Positions 6,610 through 63,823 of a stretch of 64,000 bases of DNA are shown here, one piece after another (the first letter of the stretch is position 1; every line of letters begins with the position of its first letter). Under the pieces are notes generated by a model. That model saw nothing but the letters and a program-made list of their open reading frames with translations, had not been told where the DNA came from and made no database searches. The stretch lies in assembly GCA_900470095.1 (NCBI GenBank), contig UBZM01000062.1, forward strand, positions 1-64,000. Reading direction: 5' to 3'. The position numbers and the translations under genes were made by a program. Source of the stretch: Hyphomicrobiales bacterium. Lineage in GTDB: Bacteria; Pseudomonadota; Alphaproteobacteria; Rhizobiales; Beijerinckiaceae.

Positions 6610-8712
6610 ATGGAGATTCCATCTTTCCCAGTGGTCTGGGCTGCGCTCGCCAGCCTGCTGACCGTTCTGGCCGGCCTTGCCGCCGTAATGCTGCTACGTG
6701 CACGCAATCGGGTCGTGGAACAGGCGCTGGACATGACCCAGGACCTTGAGAAGCTGACCGACCGTCTCTGGTCGCTGGCAGACAGCGAAGAGCGCTATCG
6801 CAGCCTGATCGAGGCTCAGGGCGATCTGATCGTCCGCCGGAACGAAGGCAGTATCGTCTATGCGAATGCCGCCTATGCCGCGCTTCTCGGAGCGACCGAG
6901 GCTGAGATCATCGGCAGCCGCACCGCACCGCGCGTCATCGAGAGCCGACCTGCGCAGGCGCTGACCGACGGCACGCGGATCTTCGACGAATGCATCGCCT
7001 CGCCCGAGGGAGGCGAGTGCTGGATCTCCTGGGTCGAGACCATCGTGCCGGTCGCGCTCGGCAAGACAGTGCTGCAGCGCGTCGGCCGCGATATCTCCGC
7101 CCGGATCGCCGGCGAGCAGGCGTTGGAGGAGGCGCGCAGCCGCGCCGAGAGCGCCAACGAGGCCAAGTCGCGTTTCCTTGCGACCGTCAGCCACGAGTTC
7201 CGGACGCCGCTCAACGGCATTCTCGGCATGGCCGACCTCCTGAACGACACCAGGCTCGACCCGGAGCAGACCACCTATGTCCGGGCACTCCGGACCTCGG
7301 GCGAAGCCTTGCTCGGCCTCGTCGACGACATTCTCGACTTTGCCAAGGTCGAAGCCGGCAGGCTCGAACTCGCCGAGGAGCGCTTCGATCTCGGCCAGTT
7401 GGTCGAGACGGTCAGCGAATTGATGGCGCCACGAGCCCAGGCCAAGGGGCTCGAGATTGCGACCTTCCTCGCGCCGGATCTCGCCTCGCACTGGATCGGA
7501 GACCGCGACCGGCTGCGCCAGATCCTGCTCAATCTCGTCGGCAACGCCATCAAGTTCACCGAGGCCGGCGGTGTCGGCATTCGTGTCGCCCGTGCGGGCG
7601 AGGCGATTGCCATCCACGTCTCCGATACCGGACCCGGCATTCCGCCAGGGCGATTGCAGGCGATCTTCGAGGAATTCGAGCAGGCCGACAGCTCTGCGGC
7701 CCGGCGCCATGACGGGACCGGTCTCGGGCTCGCGATCGTGCGCCGGCTCGTGACCTTGATGGGTGGTTCGGTCACCGCAGAAAACGCGCCGGGATCGGGC
7801 GCGATCTTCCGCGTTACATTGCCGCTTCCTGAGGGCGGCGCAGGGATACGGGTTTCAGCCCTACCTGAATGGCGCGGCAAGCTGATCATGATCGCATCTG
7901 CCGCGCCGTTCGGACCGGACTATCTCGCGGAAACCATGGAGATTGCCGGCGCGTCGGTCGCGCGAGCCCAGAATGTGACGGAAGCGCTCGCGCTGCTCGC
8001 CGACGCACGGCGCTTCGATGCCGCCTTGATCGACCAGGCCATCGGCGTCGATGAAGCGCGCGCCGTCGCTGCAGCCGCGCGGCAGGCCGGTGTCGGCGAA
8101 TGCCTGATCCTGATGTCTCCCTTTGAACGCCGTCAATTCGGTTCACCGCTCGCTGGCGGTTTCACCGGCTTTCTCGTCAAGCCGGTCCGCGCCCGCTCGC
8201 TCTATGAGCGGCTTGCACCGCCCGCTCGGCCGCGGCGGGAAACTCTGCCGCCCCGTGGGGTAACGCCTATCCAGGCCAGAGATCCCGCTCCATCTCAACT
8301 GACGGTTTTGATCGCCGAGGATAACGATATCAACGGGCTGCTCGTGACGCGAACCCTCGAACGCCTCGGCTGCACGGCCGTCTGGGCGCGGGACGGGCGC
8401 GAAGCGGTCGCTCTCATCGAGGCCGGGCTCACGGGCAAACGTGCACCCTTCGATCTCATTCTGCTCGACATCCGGATGCCGGAGCTTGACGGATTGGAAG
8501 CCGCTCGCCGGATTCGCGCCCTGGAGGCATCGCTCGGGCGACCAAACTTGCTACCCATTGTCGCGGTCACCGCCAATGTCGCCGAGGAGGATCGGCAAGC
8601 CGCATTGGCCGCCGGAATGAATGATTGCCTGGCTAAACCATTGGCCCGTGAGGCGCTTCGCGCCTGGATCGCGCGAGTAAGCGGGGCGCAGCGCGTCACA
8701 CTCCGCGCTTGA
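6610..8712 (+). CDS. Hybrid sensor histidine kinase with two receiver-like domains
   Basis: A 700-residue membrane-attached kinase. One N-terminal helix (about 5-28) is followed by a short coiled linker and a PAS domain (about 62-170). HisKA comes next with the phospho-acceptor His195 in TVSHEFRTPLNG, then HATPase_c with DTGPGIP and GTGLGLAIVRRL boxes to about residue 405. A degenerate receiver (about 418-535) retains Asp475 in ALIDQ and Lys524 in FLVKPVR but lacks the acidic pair near its start. A canonical receiver (about 570-690) has an acidic IAEDN pocket, Asp620 in LLDIRMPELDG and a terminal LAKP. No separate response regulator is adjacent, so its output partner must be elsewhere. The signal is unknown. 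Confidence 0.93.
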   Translation: MEIPSFPVVWAALASLLTVLAGLAAVMLLRARNRVVEQALDMTQDLEKLTDRLWSLADSEERYRSLIEAQGDLIVRRNEGSIVYANAAYAALLGATEAEIIGSRTAPRVIESRPAQALTDGTRIFDECIASPEGGECWISWVETIVPVALGKTVLQRVGRDISARIAGEQALEEARSRAESANEAKSRFLATVSHEFRTPLNGILGMADLLNDTRLDPEQTTYVRALRTSGEALLGLVDDILDFAKVEAGRLELAEERFDLGQLVETVSELMAPRAQAKGLEIATFLAPDLASHWIGDRDRLRQILLNLVGNAIKFTEAGGVGIRVARAGEAIAIHVSDTGPGIPPGRLQAIFEEFEQADSSAARRHDGTGLGLAIVRRLVTLMGGSVTAENAPGSGAIFRVTLPLPEGGAGIRVSALPEWRGKLIMIASAAPFGPDYLAETMEIAGASVARAQNVTEALALLADARRFDAALIDQAIGVDEARAVAAAARQAGVGECLILMSPFERRQFGSPLAGGFTGFLVKPVRARSLYERLAPPARPRRETLPPRGVTPIQARDPAPSQLTVLIAEDNDINGLLVTRTLERLGCTAVWARDGREAVALIEAGLTGKRAPFDLILLDIRMPELDGLEAARRIRALEASLGRPNLLPIVAVTANVAEEDRQAALAAGMNDCLAKPLAREALRAWIARVSGAQRVTLRA

Positions 8713-55440: not shown

Positions 55441-56466
55441 TCATTCTTGCGCGGCACTGATCTCCGCGAAACGAGCAGGCAAAGCGAAGCCGAGTCCGAG
55501 CGGATCGTCGGCCTCGATGATGAAAGCGCCCTCGCCTGCGAGATGGCTAAGGCCGCCGACCTCGACGGTGACCGCTCCCTCGGCGGGATAGGCTGCAGGC
55601 CCGAGGACACGCCCCGAGAAACGGCCGCCTGTGATACTGCGGAAACTCCGTGTCCGCCCCAGCCCGACCAGCCCCTTGGCGTGGTCGAGCGCCATGCGGG
55701 CGGTCACGCCCGAGCCTGTCGGGGAGCGGTCGATCTGCCGCTCGGCGAAGATGCAGAGGTTGAAACTGGTCTCGCCCGAGCCGGCCTCGTCGGTCACGAT
55801 CGTCCCGTAGAGAAAGCCGAGATCGGGCTCGGTGGGATGTGTGATCGGCGCGCCGGCCCGCACAATGTCGGTGAGGGCAGCAGCAGCCTCGGTCAACTGC
55901 TCGACCGGGGTTTCGAAGAGATCGAGCCCGAAGCGCGAAGCCGGAAGGATGCAGTAGAAGGCTCCTCCGTAGGCGATATCGGTTGTGATGCTTCCGAAGC
56001 CCGGCACCTCGACCACACGGTCGCGGGCATGGACGAAGGCAGGCACGCTCTCGAAGCGCACCTCCCCGACCTTCCCGTCGGCGACGTCGCAGGCAAGCCG
56101 CAGCAGGCCGCAGGGCGCCTCGATGGCAAAGTGCGTGACGGGCTCGACTGCCGGCACGAGGCCGCGCTCGATCGCATAGCGGCCGAGCGCGATGGTGGCA
56201 TGGCCACACATCGTCGAGTAGCCCTCGTTATGAGTGAAAAGCACGCCGAAGGCAGCCTCGGGATGGCTCGCCTCGACCGGAATGACACCGTACATTCCGG
56301 CATGGCCGCGCGGTTCCAGCATCATCGCGCGGCGCAGGTGATCGTGGCTGTCGCGCGCCTGTCGACGCTTGTCGAGAATCGTCGCGCCGGTCAGCTCGGG
56401 ATAGCCGCCCGTAACGATGCGCACCGGCTCGCCGCAGGTGTGGTAGTCGAGATAGCTCAGGCGCAT
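55441..56466 (-). CDS. Trans-3-hydroxy-L-proline dehydratase (proline-racemase family)
   Basis: A 341-residue proline-racemase-fold enzyme. The first catalytic site is GYSTMCGHATIALGRY with the Cys present. The second, normally DRSPCGTG, reads DRSPTGSGV with Thr in place of Cys. Cys/Thr is the pattern of trans-3-hydroxy-L-proline dehydratase (as in human L3HYPDH), not of the racemase or epimerase. The product would be pyrroline-2-carboxylate. It follows the PfkB gene by 13 bp on the minus strand; the ATG at 56466 begins the conserved MRLSYLDYHTCGEPVRIV. Confidence 0.9.
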   Translation of the reverse strand: MRLSYLDYHTCGEPVRIVTGGYPELTGATILDKRRQARDSHDHLRRAMMLEPRGHAGMYGVIPVEASHPEAAFGVLFTHNEGYSTMCGHATIALGRYAIERGLVPAVEPVTHFAIEAPCGLLRLACDVADGKVGEVRFESVPAFVHARDRVVEVPGFGSITTDIAYGGAFYCILPASRFGLDLFETPVEQLTEAAAALTDIVRAGAPITHPTEPDLGFLYGTIVTDEAGSGETSFNLCIFAERQIDRSPTGSGVTARMALDHAKGLVGLGRTRSFRSITGGRFSGRVLGPAAYPAEGAVTVEVGGLSHLAGEGAFIIEADDPLGLGFALPARFAEISAAQE

Positions 56467-56479
56467 CGGCGCGTTCCCC

Positions 56480-57418
56480 TCACTGATAGGGTGGCTTGGG
56501 TGTGAGACGCGGCGGATCACAGCCGCGCCGGCCGCAGGTCTCGGCTGCGACCTCCGCCGCGAAACCCATTGCGGATGCGGCAGCGCCGTCCGACAACCCG
56601 CGCAGACTTGCCCCGAGTTCGCCAGCCTGCGCGAGCGAAGCGAGGAATGCGCCGATGAAGCTGTCGCCGGCGCCGATCGTGTCGACCAGCTCCGCAACCG
56701 GAACGAAGCCGCGCACGGTCTCACTTCCTGGCCGTTCGAGCGCCGCTCCGCGATCGCCCTCGGTCAGCAGGATCGCTGAAACACCCCGGTCGAACCAACG
56801 GCGCAGCGGCGCAACGTAGCCGCCGGGATAGAGCCAGTCGGCATCGTCCGTACTGAGCCGGATGAGGTCTGACAGCGCCATGCGCTGCTCGATGGCGGCG
56901 AGCGCGGCCTCCCGATCCGGCAGCGCCGGCGTCCTGATATTGACGTCATAGCTGGTGCTCAGGCCGGCAGAGCGCGCATGGCGCAGCAGCGTCAACGCCG
57001 CGTCTCCGGATGGACCGACCGTCGCTCCGAACGAGGTGACATGCAGATGGCCAAAACCCGTGAGGCTGCGGGGCAATGGCGGAGGCTCGGCCAGCGCCGT
57101 ACCGGCGAGGTGGAAGTGATATCGCGCCCCGCCATCTGCCCCAAGCGGGGCAACGACGGCCAGCGGTGTGGGGGCGTCGCTCTCCGCAATGAAGCGCCGA
57201 TCGATCGCCTCTGCCACAAGGCGGGCCTGGAAGCGCCGCCCTGTGACGTCACGCGAGAGCGTCGCGCAATAAGCCACAGAGGTGCCGCAGCGCGCGAGCG
57301 CCAGCGCCGTGTTGAAGCCGGATCCGCCCAACACGCACTGATAGCGCTCGCCGCGTCCGTCCTCCGGCACCAGATCGGCGAGCGCTTCGCCAAAGACGAG
57401 CACCGCCCTCGGGTTCAC
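56480..57418 (-). CDS. PfkB-family sugar kinase (fructokinase/KDG-kinase type)
   Basis: A 312-residue ribokinase-like enzyme. VLVFGEALADLVPEDG opens it, GGSGFNTALALARCGTSVAY is the sugar-side PfkB signature 1, and VDTIGAGDSFIGAFLASLAQ holds the catalytic Asp and anion hole. The GTG start at 57418 overlaps the FAH stop (GTGA); a longer frame to 57481 would run into the FAH gene. With the FAH neighbour it may phosphorylate a sugar or keto-deoxy sugar acid; the substrate is not resolved. Confidence 0.92.
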   Translation of the reverse strand: MNPRAVLVFGEALADLVPEDGRGERYQCVLGGSGFNTALALARCGTSVAYCATLSRDVTGRRFQARLVAEAIDRRFIAESDAPTPLAVVAPLGADGGARYHFHLAGTALAEPPPLPRSLTGFGHLHVTSFGATVGPSGDAALTLLRHARSAGLSTSYDVNIRTPALPDREAALAAIEQRMALSDLIRLSTDDADWLYPGGYVAPLRRWFDRGVSAILLTEGDRGAALERPGSETVRGFVPVAELVDTIGAGDSFIGAFLASLAQAGELGASLRGLSDGAAASAMGFAAEVAAETCGRRGCDPPRLTPKPPYQ

Positions 57419-58593
57419 AGCAGCCCGCGCTTCGCCAAATTGCGCATCAGATGCGAAGCGCCGAAGGTCCAGGGCTCGCATTCATCGGTGCGGCGCATGC
57501 AATTGACGAGCGCTCCCAGTTCCGGCGCAGCAATCGTGACGATGTCCCCGTATTTATGGGTAAAGCCACCGCCCGGCGTGTCGCGATCCTTGATCGGCGC
57601 AAACATGGTGCCGAGATAGAGCGCCGCACCATCCGGATACTGATGGTTCGGATTGAGCATCTGCGCGGCGAGATCAGCCGGATCGCGGCTGATTTTCGCG
57701 ATCGAGGACGAGCCTTCCAGCCTGAAGCCATCCTCGCCCTCGACCGTCAGCGTCACGGTCGTCTTGCGGACATGGTCGAGCGAGAAGCCGGCATCGAAGA
57801 AGCGGATGAAGGGACCGACCGCCGCCGCAGCATTGTTGTCCTTGGCCTTGCCGAGCAGCAGCGCCGAGCGCCCCTCGACGTCGCGCAGATTGACGTCGTT
57901 GCCGAGCGTTGCTCCGACGATGGCACCGGTCGAGGCGACGATCAGCACGATCTCCGGCTCGGGATTGTTCCAGGTCGAGGCCGGGTGCAGGCCGGCATCG
58001 ACACCGGTGCCGACGGCCGACATGGGCGGCGCCTTGGTGAAGATCTCGGCATCCGGCCCGATGCCGACCTCGAGATATTGGCTCCAGGCACCCTGCTTGA
58101 TCAGCACGTCCTTGAGATGCATCGCCTCGGGCGAGCCGGGCTTCAACTTCGAAAGATCGTCACCGATGAGCTTGCCGATCTCCTCGCGGATCGTGGCGGC
58201 GGCGGCCGGATTGCCCCGCGCCTTCTCCTCGATCACGCGCTCCAGCATCGAGACCGCGAAGGTCACTCCGGCGGCCTTGACCGCCTGCAGGTCGAGCGGC
58301 GCGAGCAGCCAGGGCTTCGTTGCGTCGCGGCGCGCGGGCGGCGTGTTTGCAAGGATGTCGGCGAGCGTTCCGATGGGATCGCCCTTGGCGATGCGCAGGG
58401 CTGCCGCGGGATCGGCCGTCTCGCAGAGATCGCGCATCGTGGCAAAGGCAGCGGTGATATCCACAAGTTCATCACCACGCAGAACGACGACCGCGGGACC
58501 GGCAACCTCCGGGCGCCAGACCCGGCCAGCGAGCGCGGCGACTGCGGCGTCCGCCGGCAAAGTGTTCCGTGGCGTCAGGGCAAGCTCGGGCAT
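57415..58593 (-). CDS. FAH-family hydrolase/dehydratase
   Basis: A 392-residue fumarylacetoacetase-fold protein. The metal-site region has NNPEPEIVLIVASTGAIVG (ExE-type), with GNDVNLRDVEGRSALLLGKA and KDNNAAAAVGPFIRF after it. This stretch resembles the branch that includes 2-keto-3-deoxy-D-arabinonate dehydratases more than true fumarylacetoacetases. The N-terminal half (ALAGRVWRPEVAGPAVVVLR) is a divergent cap. It is the first gene of a three-gene minus-strand unit opposite ugpB. A sugar-acid role is inferred. Confidence 0.88.
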   Translation of the reverse strand: MPELALTPRNTLPADAAVAALAGRVWRPEVAGPAVVVLRGDELVDITAAFATMRDLCETADPAAALRIAKGDPIGTLADILANTPPARRDATKPWLLAPLDLQAVKAAGVTFAVSMLERVIEEKARGNPAAAATIREEIGKLIGDDLSKLKPGSPEAMHLKDVLIKQGAWSQYLEVGIGPDAEIFTKAPPMSAVGTGVDAGLHPASTWNNPEPEIVLIVASTGAIVGATLGNDVNLRDVEGRSALLLGKAKDNNAAAAVGPFIRFFDAGFSLDHVRKTTVTLTVEGEDGFRLEGSSSIAKISRDPADLAAQMLNPNHQYPDGAALYLGTMFAPIKDRDTPGGGFTHKYGDIVTIAAPELGALVNCMRRTDECEPWTFGASHLMRNLAKRGLL

Positions 58594-58688
58594 GATCGTT
58601 CGTCCGCTGGTGGAATGGTCACGTTGAAAGTCGCACGCGAGAACAGCCGCTTCGCCGCCAATGTGCAAGAGTGCAGGGACGCGGATCA

Positions 58689-58710
58689 GACATGGCGCAC
58701 ATGTCGTGCG
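58689..58710. promoter_or_regulatory. Two overlapping inverted repeats in the FAH-ugpB gap
   Basis: GACATG (58689-58694) / CATGTC (58700-58705), and overlapping it CGCAC (58696-58700) / GTGCG (58706-58710), each around a 5-bp spacer. They lie just upstream of the ugpB promoter and could bind a regulator governing both divergent operons. No regulator gene is adjacent in the window. Confidence 0.45.
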
Positions 58711-58717
58711 ATTGTCA

Positions 58718-58748
58718 TTGAAACGTCACCTGTTCTTCATGCTAGCTT
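58718..58748 (+). promoter_or_regulatory. Putative ugpB promoter
   Basis: TTGAAA (58718-58723) and TAGCTT (58743-58748) with a 19-bp spacer, preceded by the inverted repeats. The spacing is long, so confidence is moderate. GGGAGAG at about 58791-58797 is the ribosome site. Confidence 0.4.
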
Positions 58749-58800: not shown

Positions 58801-60123
58801 ATGACATCCAGATCGCGCTTGATGATTTCGGCTGCGCTGCTGACGCTGGCTGGTGCGGCTCCGGCCGTCGCGCAGACAGAGATTCAGTGGTGGCATGCGC
58901 TGACCGGCGCCAATAACGACGTGGTCGTGAAGCTGGCCGAGGAATTCAACGCCTCCCAGAAGGAATACAAGGTCGTTCCGGCCTATAAGGGCTCCTATCC
59001 CGACACGCTGAACGCTGGCGTCGCCGCCTTCCGCGCCGGTACCGCGCCCCACATTCTGCAGGTCTTCGAAGTCGGCACCGGCACGATGATGTCGGCCAAG
59101 GGCGCTGTGAAGCCCGTGCACGAACTGATGAAGGAAGCCGGCGAGCCTTTCGATCCCAAGGCTTATTTGCCGGCGATCACCGGCTATTACTCGACCGCCA
59201 AGGGCGACATGCTCTCCATGCCGTTCAACTCGTCGAGCATGGTGATGTGGTACAACAAGGACGCCTTCAAGAAGGCGGGCCTGAACCCCGACGCCCCGCC
59301 GAAGACCTGGCCAGAAGTCTTCGAGGCCGGAAGGAAGCTGAAGGCCGCCGGATATGACAAGTGCGGCTTCACCAATGCCTGGGCGACCTGGGCCAATATC
59401 GAGCAGTTCGGTGCCTGGCACAACATCCCGATTGCGACCAAGGCGAATGGTCTCGATGGCTTCGACACGGTCCTGAACTTCAACAGCCCGCTCTTCCTGA
59501 AGCACTGGACCAACCTGGTCGAGCTGCAGAAGGACAAGACCTACGATTACTCCGGCCGCACCAATAACGGGGAAGGCCGCTTCACCTCGGGCGAATGCCC
59601 GATCATGCTGACCTCGTCGGGCTTCTTCGGCAACGTCAAGGCCAACGCCAAGTTCGACTGGGCCAACGCCGCGATGCCGTATTATCCGGAAGCGGCCGGG
59701 GCACCGCAGAACTCGATCATCGGCGGCGCCTCGCTGTGGGTGATGGGCGGCAAGAAGGCTGACGAATACAAGGGCGTCGCCAAGTTCTTCACCTTCCTCT
59801 CCGATGTCGACCGTCAGGTGAAGCTGCACACCGAGTCCGGCTATCTGCCGATCACCAAGGCCGCCTATGCCAAGGTCAAGGATTCCGGCTTCTACAAGGA
59901 CAAGCCCTATCTCGAGACGCCGCTGCTCGAACTCAACAACAAGGAGCCGACCGAGAATTCGCGCGGCCTGCGCTTCGGCGGCCTGGTCCAGATCCGCGAC
60001 ATCTGGTCGGAAGAGCTCGAAGCGGCGCTGAACGGCCAGAAGACGCCGAAGGCTGCGCTTGACGCCGCCGTCGAGCGTGGCAATCAGGCGCTGCGCCAGT
60101 TCGAGCGAACCGCCTCGCGCTGA
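58801..60123 (+). CDS. ugpB: sn-Glycerol-3-phosphate-binding protein UgpB
   Basis: A 440-residue periplasmic receptor with a signal peptide (about 1-24). It is closely UgpB-like along its length: [74 protein letters not shown] and [15 protein letters not shown]. It would bind glycerol 3-phosphate or glycerophosphodiesters. A strong terminator-like hairpin follows 18 nt after the stop, suggesting excess of receptor over permease. Confidence 0.95.
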
Positions 60124-60140
60124 ACCGGTTACGATCCTGA

Positions 60141-60170
60141 GCCGGGGCCTTCCGCCCCGGCTTTTCTCTT
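60141..60170 (+). terminator. Intrinsic terminator/attenuator between ugpB and ugpA
   Basis: A perfect 8-bp stem GCCGGGGC / GCCCCGGC with a 5-nt loop (60141-60161) followed by TTTTCTCTT. It is the strongest intrinsic terminator in the window, yet it lies inside an apparent operon only 15 nt before the ugpA start. Partial read-through would give high ugpB and lower ugpAEC expression. Confidence 0.75.
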
Positions 60171-60184
60171 GCTTCACGGGCTGC

Positions 60185-61066
60185 ATGCAGAAGAACGCCT
60201 ATTTCCGGAGCCTGACGATCCCGCTCCTGCTGCTCCTGCCGCAGCTCGCGATCACGGTCGTGTTCTTCTACTGGCCGGCGAGCCAGGCAGTCTGGCAGTC
60301 CTTCCTGCTGGAAGATGCCTTCGGCACGTCGACCCAGTTCGTCTGGTTCGAAAACTACCAGAGCCTTTTCGCCGACCCCGGTTACTTCAAGGCGCTGCGC
60401 AACACAGCGGTCTTCTCGACCTTCGTCTGCGTGTTCTCGCTGTCGATCGCGCTGCTCTTTGCCGTGATGGCCGACCGGCAGATCCGCGGCGCCGAAATCT
60501 ACAAGACGCTTCTGATCTGGCCCTATGCGGTCGCTCCCGCCATCGCCGGCGTGCTATGGATCTTCATGTTCGATCCTTCGCTCGGCATGCTCGCGCGTGG
60601 GCTGCAGAGCCTCGGCATCGCTTGGAATCCGCGCCTCAACGGCAATGACGCCATGACGCTGGTCATCCTCGCCGCGACATGGAAGCAGATCAGCTACAAT
60701 TTCCTGTTCTTCCTCGCCGGGCTGCAATCGATCCCCAAGAGCGTGATCGAGGCGGCGGTGATCGACGGTGCGCGACCGATGCGCCGCTTCTGGACCATCA
60801 TCTTCCCGCTGCTGTCGCCAACCACGTTCTTCCTGCTCGTCGTCAACATCGTCTATGTCTTCTTCGACACCTTCGGCATCATCGACACGGTCACTGGCGG
60901 CGGGCCCGCGGGCGCGACCGAGACGCTGGTCTACAAGGTCTATTCCGACGGCAAGGGCGGCTCCAATCTTGGTGGCTCGGCGGCACAATCGGTCATCCTG
61001 CTCGTGATGGTCATCGCCATGACGGCGGTGCAGTTCCGCTTCATCGAGCGCAAGGTGAATTACTGA
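60185..61066 (+). CDS. ugpA: Glycerol-3-phosphate ABC permease UgpA
   Basis: A 293-residue permease with six helices, matching UgpA in length. The cytoplasmic EAA loop is [20 protein letters not shown], with the C-terminal [40 protein letters not shown] is typical of UgpA/MalF-type permeases. The ATG at 60185 is preceded closely by the hairpin tail, so its ribosome site is weak. Its stop overlaps the creatininase ATG (TGATG). Confidence 0.94.
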
Positions 61067-61824
61067 TGGCCTCGGTGCTCTGGAAGGAACTGACGGCCGA
61101 GGATCTGCGTCACAAGGCGGCGAAGGATGCGATCGTCGTCCTGCCCGTGGCCTCGATGGAACAGCACGGGCCGCACCTGCCGGTCGGCGTCGACACCATC
61201 CTGTGCGAAGGCGTCTGCAAGGCCGCTGCCGAGCGCCTGGACGAGGCCGATGTCGTGGTCGCCCCGACGCTCTGGTGTGGCATGGCCGAGCATCACATGG
61301 CCTTCGGCGGCACCTTCACCTTCGACATCCCGACCTATCGGTCCGTGCTGCTTTCGCTGCTCAGGAGCATCGAGCGGCATGGCTTCCGCCGGGTCGTGAT
61401 CGTCAATGGCCATGGCGGCAATATCGCCGCGCTCGGCGCGTTCCTGCCGGATTTCGCCCGCGAGACTGGCCTGCGCATCATCGCGACCACCTATTTCGAG
61501 CTGGCGCAGACCGCGATGCTGCCCTTCATGCAGGATCAGACCAGCGTGCTGCATGCCTGCGAGATCGAGACCTCGATGATGATGGTGCTGGCTCCGGAAA
61601 CGGTTAAGCAGGAGCGACTGGGGCAGGCCTTCGGCATGCTCGGCGCCGATCCGCGTGGCCTGATGCGCCCGACCGTCGCGCGCTACCGCCCCTTCCGTGA
61701 GATGACGGAGACCGGCGTGATCGGCGATGCGCGGCGCGCGACGCCGAAGAAGGGCGAGGAATTTCTCAACGCTTGCGCCGAGGCGCTCGCGGCCTTGCTG
61801 CGCGACGGGGAGGCCTGGCACTGA
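61066..61824 (+). CDS. Creatininase-family amidohydrolase inside the ugp operon
   Basis: A 252-residue binuclear-metal enzyme. Metal ligands match the family: Glu and His in MEQHGPHLPVGVDTIL plus the Asp there, His in VNGHGGNIAALGAFL and Glu in ACEIETSMMM. Family members hydrolyse creatinine or related cyclic amides, or act in cofactor maturation. It starts on the ugpA stop and its own stop overlaps the ugpE ATG, so it is fully embedded between the two permease genes. Any link to glycerophosphate uptake is unknown. Confidence 0.9.
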   Translation: MASVLWKELTAEDLRHKAAKDAIVVLPVASMEQHGPHLPVGVDTILCEGVCKAAAERLDEADVVVAPTLWCGMAEHHMAFGGTFTFDIPTYRSVLLSLLRSIERHGFRRVVIVNGHGGNIAALGAFLPDFARETGLRIIATTYFELAQTAMLPFMQDQTSVLHACEIETSMMMVLAPETVKQERLGQAFGMLGADPRGLMRPTVARYRPFREMTETGVIGDARRATPKKGEEFLNACAEALAALLRDGEAWH

Positions 61825-62672
61825 TGGTCGAGAACCGCCGCTTCGGCGACATCGTCGCCTATATCATCCTGACGATAGGCGTGCTGATCGTCGCCTTTCC
61901 GGTCTGGCTGACCTTCGTCGCCTCGACCTGGGATGCTGCGACCATCATCAACGGTCAGCTCCCGCTCTATCCTGGCCCGCATTTCTTCGAGAATTACTAC
62001 CGCATCCTCTTCGTCGGCACCTCGGGCTCGACCCGCGAGCCGGTGGCCGTGATGATGTTCAACTCCTTCGTGATGGCGCTGGCCATCGCGTTCGGCAAGA
62101 TCCTCATCTCCGTGCTCTCTGCCTATGCGGTCGTCTATTATCGCTTCCCGTTTCGGATGGCGGCATTCTGGATCATCTTCGTCACCCTGATGCTGCCGGT
62201 CGAAGTCCGCATCTTCCCGACCTTCAAGGTCGTCTCCGATCTCGGCATGCTCGATACCTACCAGGGCCTTGCCGTGCCGCTGATCGCCTCGGCGACCGGC
62301 ACATTGCTGTTCCGGCAGTTCTTCATGACCATCCCCGACGAACTGCTCGAGGCCTCGAAGATCGATGGCGCCGGTCCGTTCAAGTTCTTCAAGGATACGG
62401 TGGTCCCGCTCTCGCTCACCACGATCGCGGCGCTCTTCGTCATCCAGTTCATCTATGGCTGGAACCAGTATCTCTGGCCGCTGCTGGTCACCACCAAGGA
62501 TTCGATGCAGACCATCGTCATCGGCATCCGCAAGATGATCACCACGGCCGATGCGCTCACCGAATGGCAGCTCGCCATGGCAACCGCGATGCTGGCGATG
62601 CTGCCGCCCGTCTTCGTCGTCATCGCCATGCAGCGGCTCTTCGTGAAGGGCCTGGTGGAAACCGAGAAGTGA
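61824..62672 (+). CDS. ugpE: Glycerol-3-phosphate ABC permease UgpE
   Basis: A 282-residue permease, one residue longer than E. coli UgpE. Six helices. The EAA loop is LLEASKIDGAGPFKFFKDTV and FIYGWNQYLWPLLVTTKDSM is characteristic. The ATG at 61824 coincides with the last base of the creatininase stop. With UgpA it forms the transmembrane channel. Confidence 0.95.
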   Translation: MVENRRFGDIVAYIILTIGVLIVAFPVWLTFVASTWDAATIINGQLPLYPGPHFFENYYRILFVGTSGSTREPVAVMMFNSFVMALAIAFGKILISVLSAYAVVYYRFPFRMAAFWIIFVTLMLPVEVRIFPTFKVVSDLGMLDTYQGLAVPLIASATGTLLFRQFFMTIPDELLEASKIDGAGPFKFFKDTVVPLSLTTIAALFVIQFIYGWNQYLWPLLVTTKDSMQTIVIGIRKMITTADALTEWQLAMATAMLAMLPPVFVVIAMQRLFVKGLVETEK

Positions 62673-62743
62673 CATTGCGTACCGGCCGCCCGGCCCGCTG
62701 AGCCGATCGCCGATTATCCGTTACCGACCGACCAAGGAACCCA

Positions 62744-63823
62744 ATGGCCCAGGTTACTCTTTCCAGCGTCAAGAAGGTCTATGCCGGCGGCGTCGAGGCC
62801 GTGAAGGGCGTCTCTTTCGACATTCCCGATGGCGGCTTCTGCGTGCTGGTCGGCCCCTCCGGGTGCGGCAAGTCCACCTTGCTGCGCATGGTGGCAGGCC
62901 TGGAGACGATCTCGTCCGGCGAAGTCTCGATCAGCGGCAGGGTCGTCAACCAGATCGAACCGGCGGACCGGGACATCGCCATGGTGTTCCAGAATTATGC
63001 GCTCTATCCGCATATGAGCGTCTACGACAATATGGCCTATGGCCTGCGCAACCGCGGGACGCCGAAGGACGAGATCGAGAAGCGGGTCAAGGAAGCAGCC
63101 CGCATCCTCGCGATCGAAGGTCTGCTGGAGCGCCGGCCGCGCCAGCTCTCGGGCGGCCAGCGTCAGCGCGTCGCCATGGGCCGCGCCATCGTGCGCAAGC
63201 CCCAGGTCTTCCTGTTCGACGAGCCACTTTCCAATCTCGACGCAAAACTGCGGGTGCAGATGCGCGTCGAGATCAAGAAGCTTCAGCGGGCACTCGGCGT
63301 CACCGCGATCTATGTCACTCACGACCAGGTCGAGGCGATGACGCTCTCCGACAAGCTTGTGGTGATGAATGGTGGCCAGGTCGAGCAGATCGGCGTCCCG
63401 GCCGAGGTCTATCGCAAACCGGCAAGCCGCTTCGTCGCGACCTTCATCGGCTCGCCGCCGATGAACCTGCTGCCGGCAGCCATCGACGGACCCGGTATCG
63501 TTGCGCTCGGTGACGCGCTCCTCGAAGCGCGTGACCTCAAGCAGAACCTCGCATCGGGAACGAAGGTCGAGGTGGGCCTGAGGCCTGAGGATATCGAGAT
63601 CGCCTCCGAGGGCCAGGCCGGTGCCCTGCCCTTCGATGTCGAGTTCATCGAGGAGCTGGGCGCAACCCAACTCTTCCACGGCAAGCTCGCCGGACAGCCT
63701 TTCGTGATGCAGGCCGCAACCGGCGATGTCGCCGCCGAGGCGAGGCGCCTGTGGATTTCGGTCGACCCCGACCGCGTCCACGTCTTCGATGCGCAATCGG
63801 GCATCCGGCTCGGGCGCGAATAG
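62744..63823 (+). CDS. ugpC: Glycerol-3-phosphate ABC ATPase UgpC
   Basis: A 359-residue CUT1-type ATPase. Walker A is [16 protein letters not shown] (about 37-52), the signature [16 protein letters not shown] and Walker [16 protein letters not shown]-terminal TOBE/regulatory domain follows (about 240-359). It starts 71 bp after ugpE, near AAGGAA. In E. coli the phosphodiesterase UgpQ follows; here no ugpQ is seen before the window end. Confidence 0.96.

Follow-up and report, generated by a model that had tools for sequence, protein, structure and literature searches.

A creatininase-superfamily gene at the ugpA-ugpE junction of the glycerol-3-phosphate importer operon in Bosea and relatives

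The DNA analysed here (the window, 64,000 nucleotides) comes from contig C93 of the 7.17-Mb, Bosea-type genome of a soil bacterium. It carries a ugp operon with the gene order ugpB-A-crn-E-C, all genes lying on the + strand. The four transporter proteins score above the respective NCBIfam Ugp cut-offs: UgpB, the periplasmic glycerol-3-phosphate-binding protein (58801-60123; PRK10974, 529.4 bits, cut-off 411), the permeases UgpA (60185-61066; PRK10561, 366.7 bits, cut-off 335) and UgpE (61824-62672; PRK10973, 391.2 bits, cut-off 297), and the ATP-binding protein UgpC (62744-63823; PRK11650, 545 bits, cut-off 432). About 100 bp upstream of ugpB lies a PHO-box-like array of four 7-bp units in 11-bp phase (58701-58740, + strand). 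Between the two permease genes, crn (61066-61824) encodes a creatininase-superfamily protein of 252 amino acids, from an ATG start to a TGA stop, which matches the Pfam model PF02633 (Creatininase) with 230.6 bits against a gathering cut-off of 31.3. The creatininase-family gene that the initial annotation had placed in this operon is real and intact. Among the best 80 of 566 relatives scanned, the closest named one is Bosea sp. LC85 (96% for the Crn protein). No GDPD gene, and hence no ugpQ, lies between ugpB and ugpC; six GDPD matches occur elsewhere in the genome, one of them adjoining a third ugp copy. Next to ugpB and divergent from it, the window contains an FAH-like gene, a gene for a PfkB-type kinase and a proline-racemase-family gene (55441-58596, - strand); the FAH-like gene, which scores just under the Pfam cut-off, is retained in most Bosea loci.

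The overlaps of crn with both permease genes, already remarked on in the initial annotation, amount to one base each. The ugpA stop codon (TGA, 61064-61066) shares its last base with the crn ATG at 61066, and the crn stop codon (TGA, 61822-61824) shares its last base with the ugpE ATG at 61824. Shine-Dalgarno-like, purine-rich stretches were seen by eye upstream of both overlapping starts. Among 44 junction loci measured (all but L182; four of the 44 crn starts are uncertain), the one-base overlap with ugpE recurs in 43 and that with ugpA in 30, which argues that the overlaps are not due to chance.

The arrangement is widespread in Bosea. An orthologous ugp operon is present in 58 of 61 genus-group genomes (the exceptions are G034, G047 and G054), and crn occupies the ugpA-ugpE junction in 40 of these 58 operons and is missing there in 18. 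Outside the Bosea clade, junction copies were found at five loci (L003, L011, L012, L013 and L182). Confinement to one or two strains would have refuted the initial reading; the arrangement instead recurs in many genomes, which rules out a strain-specific oddity or an assembly artefact. Yet it is no rule across the order. When 397 genomes of the order were surveyed, 22 contained Crn at E values up to 1e-60 and 123 contained UgpE at E values up to 1e-105. Only five of the 22 Crn-bearing genomes have crn at the junction, four from the genus and one from the same family; in the remaining 17, some of them fragmented assemblies, crn does not adjoin such a UgpE gene or the genome has no such gene. 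Two of the Bosea-group genomes, G047 and G054, carry crn without a ugp operon in the surrounding 12-15 kb.

The AlphaFold2 model of Crn (pLDDT 93.9) has a predicted creatininase fold, with Z scores of 27 to 1j2t, 1q3k and 3lub over 237-241 residues and of 26-27 to the uncharacterised relatives 3lub and 3no4. Seven residues (E32, H34, D43, H116, H163, E166 and E168) are invariant in the 45 junction copies. The metal ligands had initially been described as intact, and this holds for E32, H34, D43 and H116, which we take to be creatininase metal-ligand positions. It does not hold for the column of creatininase Glu122, presumably the fifth metal ligand; PDB titles include a creatininase E122Q mutant. 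The creatininase motif NGHYEN reads NGHGGN in Crn, so that Glu122 is replaced by Gly118, and glycine occupies this column in all 32 non-creatininase rows of the alignment. A second motif, HGGVFETS in creatininase, reads HACEIETS in Crn, which adds Glu166. Glu166 might stand in for Glu122 as a ligand. A literature search on the metal ligands found no paper. A signal peptide was not apparent by eye, and Crn is probably cytosolic; metal dependence and amide chemistry would likewise be expected.

Several named enzymes of the superfamily were compared with Crn. A true creatininase (EC 3.5.2.10) was rejected, as Crn scores 115.8 bits with TIGR04448 against a cut-off of 235 and has Gly118 in the Glu122 column. 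MftE was likewise rejected (TIGR03964, 122.6 bits, cut-off 172). The same applies to IolN, the 3-dehydro-scyllo-inosose hydrolase, with which Crn has the superfamily in common (NF041098, 79.3 bits, cut-off 245). An IolN-like cyclitol hydrolase, cleaving the ring of a diketo-inositol and so processing inositol from imported glycerophosphoinositol, could be imagined, given that IolN belongs to the superfamily and that the distant homologues L076 and L080 adjoin CUT1-type sugar ABC genes. With a score so far below the IolN cut-off and no inositol genes in the operon, we regard such a role as very unlikely.

The riboflavin pathway offers another candidate. BrbF, as described in PMC9478397, is the riboflavin-pathway formamidase of Sinorhizobium and Brucella, its gene linked to MarR and CobW genes. 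Following that source, an Ensifer BrbF-type protein was picked by its MarR-like and CobW-like neighbours, identified by eye. A shared superfamily and the presence of BrbF in this order (PMC9478397) are what would recommend Crn as a BrbF or as an archaeal-ArfB-like deformylase. However, Crn is only 27% identical to the Ensifer protein and sits in another clade, whereas the Ensifer protein groups with a different creatininase-family gene of the window's own genome (42% identity, support 100/100). This gene (G000:C38:167405-168157, L094) is likely the BrbF orthologue. A second full-length match, about 27-31% identical, occurs in most Bosea genomes among the matches listed, and this genome's copy is the one placed in the tree. 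Crn scores 21.4 bits with the model for archaeal ArfB (cut-off 180), and it is missing from 18 of the 58 Bosea operons. An identity with BrbF or ArfB is hence barely credible. No characterised member of the Crn subfamily was found.

The genomic contexts of Crn homologues vary, and no uniform context for the whole subfamily was found among the loci checked, in which neighbouring genes were named by Pfam. In a sister group of eight genomes of family f20 (L184-L191), whose Crn copies are 58-61% identical, crn is adjoined in all eight by divergently oriented hydantoinase/oxoprolinase A and B genes and by a gene for an acetamidase/formamidase, and in three by TRAP-TAXI transporter genes. This neighbourhood may represent a cyclic-amide pathway. 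Four other loci (L014, L018, L155 and L199) all have TRAP and TAXI genes, a gamma-glutamyltranspeptidase gene and an amidase gene near crn. In 14 more distant Rhizobiales loci (37-43%), a gene for a family-5 peptide-type binding protein lies next to crn in 11, and genes for a D-serine-dehydratase-like enzyme (seven loci), an M81 peptidase (six) and an M55 D-aminopeptidase (two) also occur. The homologues L019 and L021 (50%) have an M81 peptidase gene alongside, and a transaldolase gene precedes the Hyphomicrobium-like crn copies in four of four loci (L183 excepted). None of these partner genes was found at 14 further distant crn loci. The amide- and peptide-cleaving neighbours, together with the transporters, which are unrelated to Ugp, support the view that Crn relatives tend to act by small-amide or peptide chemistry on nitrogen compounds taken up by the cell, albeit not universally.

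Phaeobacter UgpB structures show nine residues in contact with glycerol 1- or 3-phosphate (PMC12718374): Tyr64, Glu88, Ser143, Trp188, Trp191, Ser266, Gly303, Tyr342 and Arg393. In the window's UgpB, all nine are identical to those of Phaeobacter (9lff) and E. coli (4aq4), and the two-Trp clamp of the pocket is retained. The complete pattern, YESWWSGYR, is present in 45 of 45 rows with crn and in 21 of 23 rows without it; the two exceptions come from G034 and G047, where the ugp copy is a diverged one. In these diverged copies (L153 in G034, L154 in G047) UgpA is 57-58% identical, and that of G047 sits at the usual place, adjoining FAH/PfkB genes. The window's genome contains two more ugp-like sets (G000:C106:46919-50018 and 59497-63187, L092), one followed by an SMP-30-type gene and the other accompanied by a GDPD gene. 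The UgpB paralogue of the GDPD-linked set reads YESDWSGYN at the pocket positions and the other YESWYSGYR. The initial annotation had raised the possibility that the transporter had changed its substrate, for instance to something with a cyclic amide; Crn would then open the ring. The superfamily does include cyclic-amide hydrolases such as creatininase, and the sister Crn copies adjoin hydantoinase/oxoprolinase genes. But UgpB, UgpA, UgpE and UgpC all remain above the Ugp cut-offs, the glycerol-phosphate pocket is intact down to the clamp, and it is the same with and without crn. We consider a switch to a cyclic amide extremely improbable; by these markers, the transporter is an ordinary Ugp importer whose pocket is unaffected by the presence or absence of crn.

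The known PhoB layout consists of direct-repeat units with an 11-bp period (PMC4415409). Scored as CTGTCAT-N4-CTGTCAT, the best 18-bp PHO-box match in the window (11 of 14) lies at 58701-58718. The units of the array are located at 58701-58707, 58712-58718, 58723-58729 and 58734-58740, the third and fourth having been identified by eye. The homologous ugpB upstream regions, which are related sequences and thus not independent, score at least 10 of 14 in 67 of 68 cases and at least 11 in 64 of 68; random 260-bp stretches from the same loci reach at least 11 in 72 of 3000. In 56 of the 68 regions the best site starts 100-108 bp upstream of ugpB. Bosea genomes without crn also carry the site (10-13 of 14). 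Hence, the putative site appears to belong to the transporter and to be shared by crn, and it bears on co-regulation only. Its position upstream of ugpB suggests that Crn is probably induced in phosphate starvation.

On a joint tree of UgpB, UgpA and UgpE (68 rows), the presence and absence of crn requires at least 11 changes, 10 of them forced by starred branches. Within Bosea (57 of 58 rows) at least eight changes are needed. Both this tree and the 92-row Crn tree come from quick searches and contain open forks, and changes on a tree are compatible with gain as well as loss; only a relic distinguishes the two. Such relics were indeed detected. In L096, L103 and L128, a short open stretch just upstream of ugpE can be aligned to the Crn C-terminus over 24-44 residues, with scores of 80, 62 and 71, respectively, against 45 for the best of 200 shuffles; the margin is somewhat flattering, as real scores were drawn from 44 references and shuffles from eight. 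These relics show that crn was lost by internal deletion in that lineage. No relic was found in L115, the fourth genome of the same clade, and the junctions lacking crn in L106, L115, L121, L138 and L151 yielded none above the shuffles. Ten further crn-less junctions are only 2 bp long and have no room for a relic. Crn is thus dispensable at the ugp operon, given its absence from 18 of 58 operons, the at least eight changes within Bosea and the C-terminal relics in three genomes.

In the Crn tree, all 45 junction copies fall within one 55-row clade (95, starred). Its ten non-junction rows are the Hyphomicrobium-like L015-L017, L020 and L183, the four loci L014, L018, L155 and L199, and L198. 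That non-junction copies are nested among junction copies suggests relocation of some copies out of the junction, several of the forks being weak. L198 (G043:C3:3908500-3924000, at about 7242-7990) is a second Crn copy of one Bosea genome, apparently split in two and perhaps a pseudogene. Crn is under purifying selection, although looser than that on the transporter: its median pairwise dN/dS is 0.26 versus 0.16-0.20 for UgpA, UgpE and UgpB. None of the 38 Bosea copies compared contains an in-frame stop; this set, also used for dN/dS, comprises the Bosea copies other than the divergent L126 and L135. A link between crn absence and neighbouring genes was considered and rejected. In 57 of 58 Bosea rows (all but L116; some loci are short), the PfkB gene is present in 16 of 18 rows without crn versus 9 of 39 with it, and the proline-racemase-like gene in 15 of 18 versus 15 of 39, but independent pairs were not significant (median p of 0.25 and 1, respectively).

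Other DNA was also observed at the junction. The gene orfX, which encodes a secreted-looking protein of about 175-185 amino acids, lies after ugpA and before crn or ugpE in 11 loci (L096, L098, L103, L107, L115, L119, L128, L138, L145, L013 and L197), some of which have crn and some of which do not. Its members are very divergent, and a Pfam scan of three of them gave no match. In at least three loci, L112, L125 and L143, the ugpA-crn spacer measures 139-151 bp and contains a common repeat-like stretch, CCGTCATGGTCGGGCTTGTCCCGACCATCCACG, recognised by eye, which has the look of a dispersed repeat. One could argue that the junction is simply a permissive slot for small genes and that crn is a pure passenger, expressed there by convenience and with no tie to phosphate physiology. 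The unrelated orfX at the same site (four of the 11 matches are weak), the repeat-like DNA filling the spacer in at least three loci and the frequent switching of crn on the tree would agree with this. On the other hand, crn evolves under purifying selection, overlaps its neighbours exactly and has long been conserved, which suggests that the place is kept, and we judge a pure passenger to be unlikely.

The reading towards which we lean, with moderate confidence, is that Crn is an optional cytosolic small-amide hydrolase with a substrate of its own, expressed together with an ordinary glycerol-3-phosphate importer under Pho control. Crn would be a metal-dependent enzyme of the creatininase superfamily that hydrolyses C-N bonds of small amides, and crn would be an optional extra gene between ugpA and ugpE in what is otherwise a canonical operon for the import of glycerol 3-phosphate and glycerophosphodiesters. 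The PhoB-type array upstream of ugpB would turn on transporter and Crn jointly in phosphate starvation, and the one-base overlaps would couple translation of crn with that of ugpA and ugpE. Its substrate would be a small amide, lactam, formamide or peptide rather than the ligand of the transporter, and loss of crn would leave the transporter unaltered. We infer both the Pho induction and the separate substrate. It is possible that the substrate lies within the imported glycerophosphodiester pool. As a counterpoint to a separate substrate, crn has stayed at the junction across a large evolutionary distance and overlaps its neighbours tightly; a true link with the imported solute would also be compatible with this.

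Such a link could take the form of a functional coupling: a glycerophosphodiester with an amide bond, such as N-acyl or N-formyl glycerophosphoethanolamine, would enter through Ugp, and Crn would hydrolyse this bond within the cell, making the head group and glycerol 3-phosphate available for use. Both would then be encoded in one operon, as observed, with the ugpE-side overlap conserved in 43 of 44 loci. The persistence of crn at a single site both within Bosea and beyond it, the probable Pho control, the operon without ugpQ with GDPD genes elsewhere, and the amide- or peptide-cleaving genes and transporters that adjoin Crn homologues would all be in line with coupling. Against it, 18 of 58 operons do without crn and their UgpB pocket is unchanged; this repeated absence weakens the coupling reading. 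Moreover, G047 and G054 have crn without a nearby ugp operon, and close homologues are retained in genomes that have crn away from the ugp operon. We therefore regard coupling as rather unlikely. In a more specific version, Crn would act in phosphate starvation by removing an amide-linked head group, or else an acyl or formyl group, from an imported glycerophosphodiester, and would found a new activity class in the superfamily; this version seems quite unlikely. If it were true, Bosea and its Beijerinckiaceae-type relatives would scavenge phospholipids by a step not yet described.

At this locus, a creatininase-superfamily subfamily that is uncharacterised is probably controlled by phosphate starvation, as part of the genus's core operon for glycerol-phosphate import. 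As relatives with and without crn occur naturally, the function of Crn is directly testable. Genes of this type should not be named 'creatininase', and the insertion should not be taken as a change of transporter substrate. Searches of the literature for creatininase-type genes associated with ugp or other transporter operons returned nothing relevant, in agreement with the initial remark that the ugp module of other bacteria is not known to include such an enzyme. It is a known operon in varied form, carrying a member of a known superfamily, and is not described in the literature searched.

In comparison with creatininase of Pseudomonas putida (PDB 1j2t, 3a6 series), the predicted fold of Crn is alike along the entire chain (Z 27, rmsd 2.5, 238 residues aligned) and the E-x-H, D and H motif residues are common to both, while the proteins are only 28-29% identical. 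The mycofactocin peptidase MftE provides the best-scoring NCBIfam model for Crn. BrbF resembles Crn in superfamily, order and the HGGN motif; unlike brbF, crn has no MarR or CobW neighbours in its operon, and Crn is missing from 18 of 58 operons. Akin to the UgpBAEC(Q) importers of E. coli and Phaeobacter (UgpB, PDB 9lff), the Bosea-type operon has four Ugp-grade proteins, the UgpB contacts and an upstream PHO-box-like array. It differs from them in carrying crn between ugpA and ugpE and in having no ugpQ.
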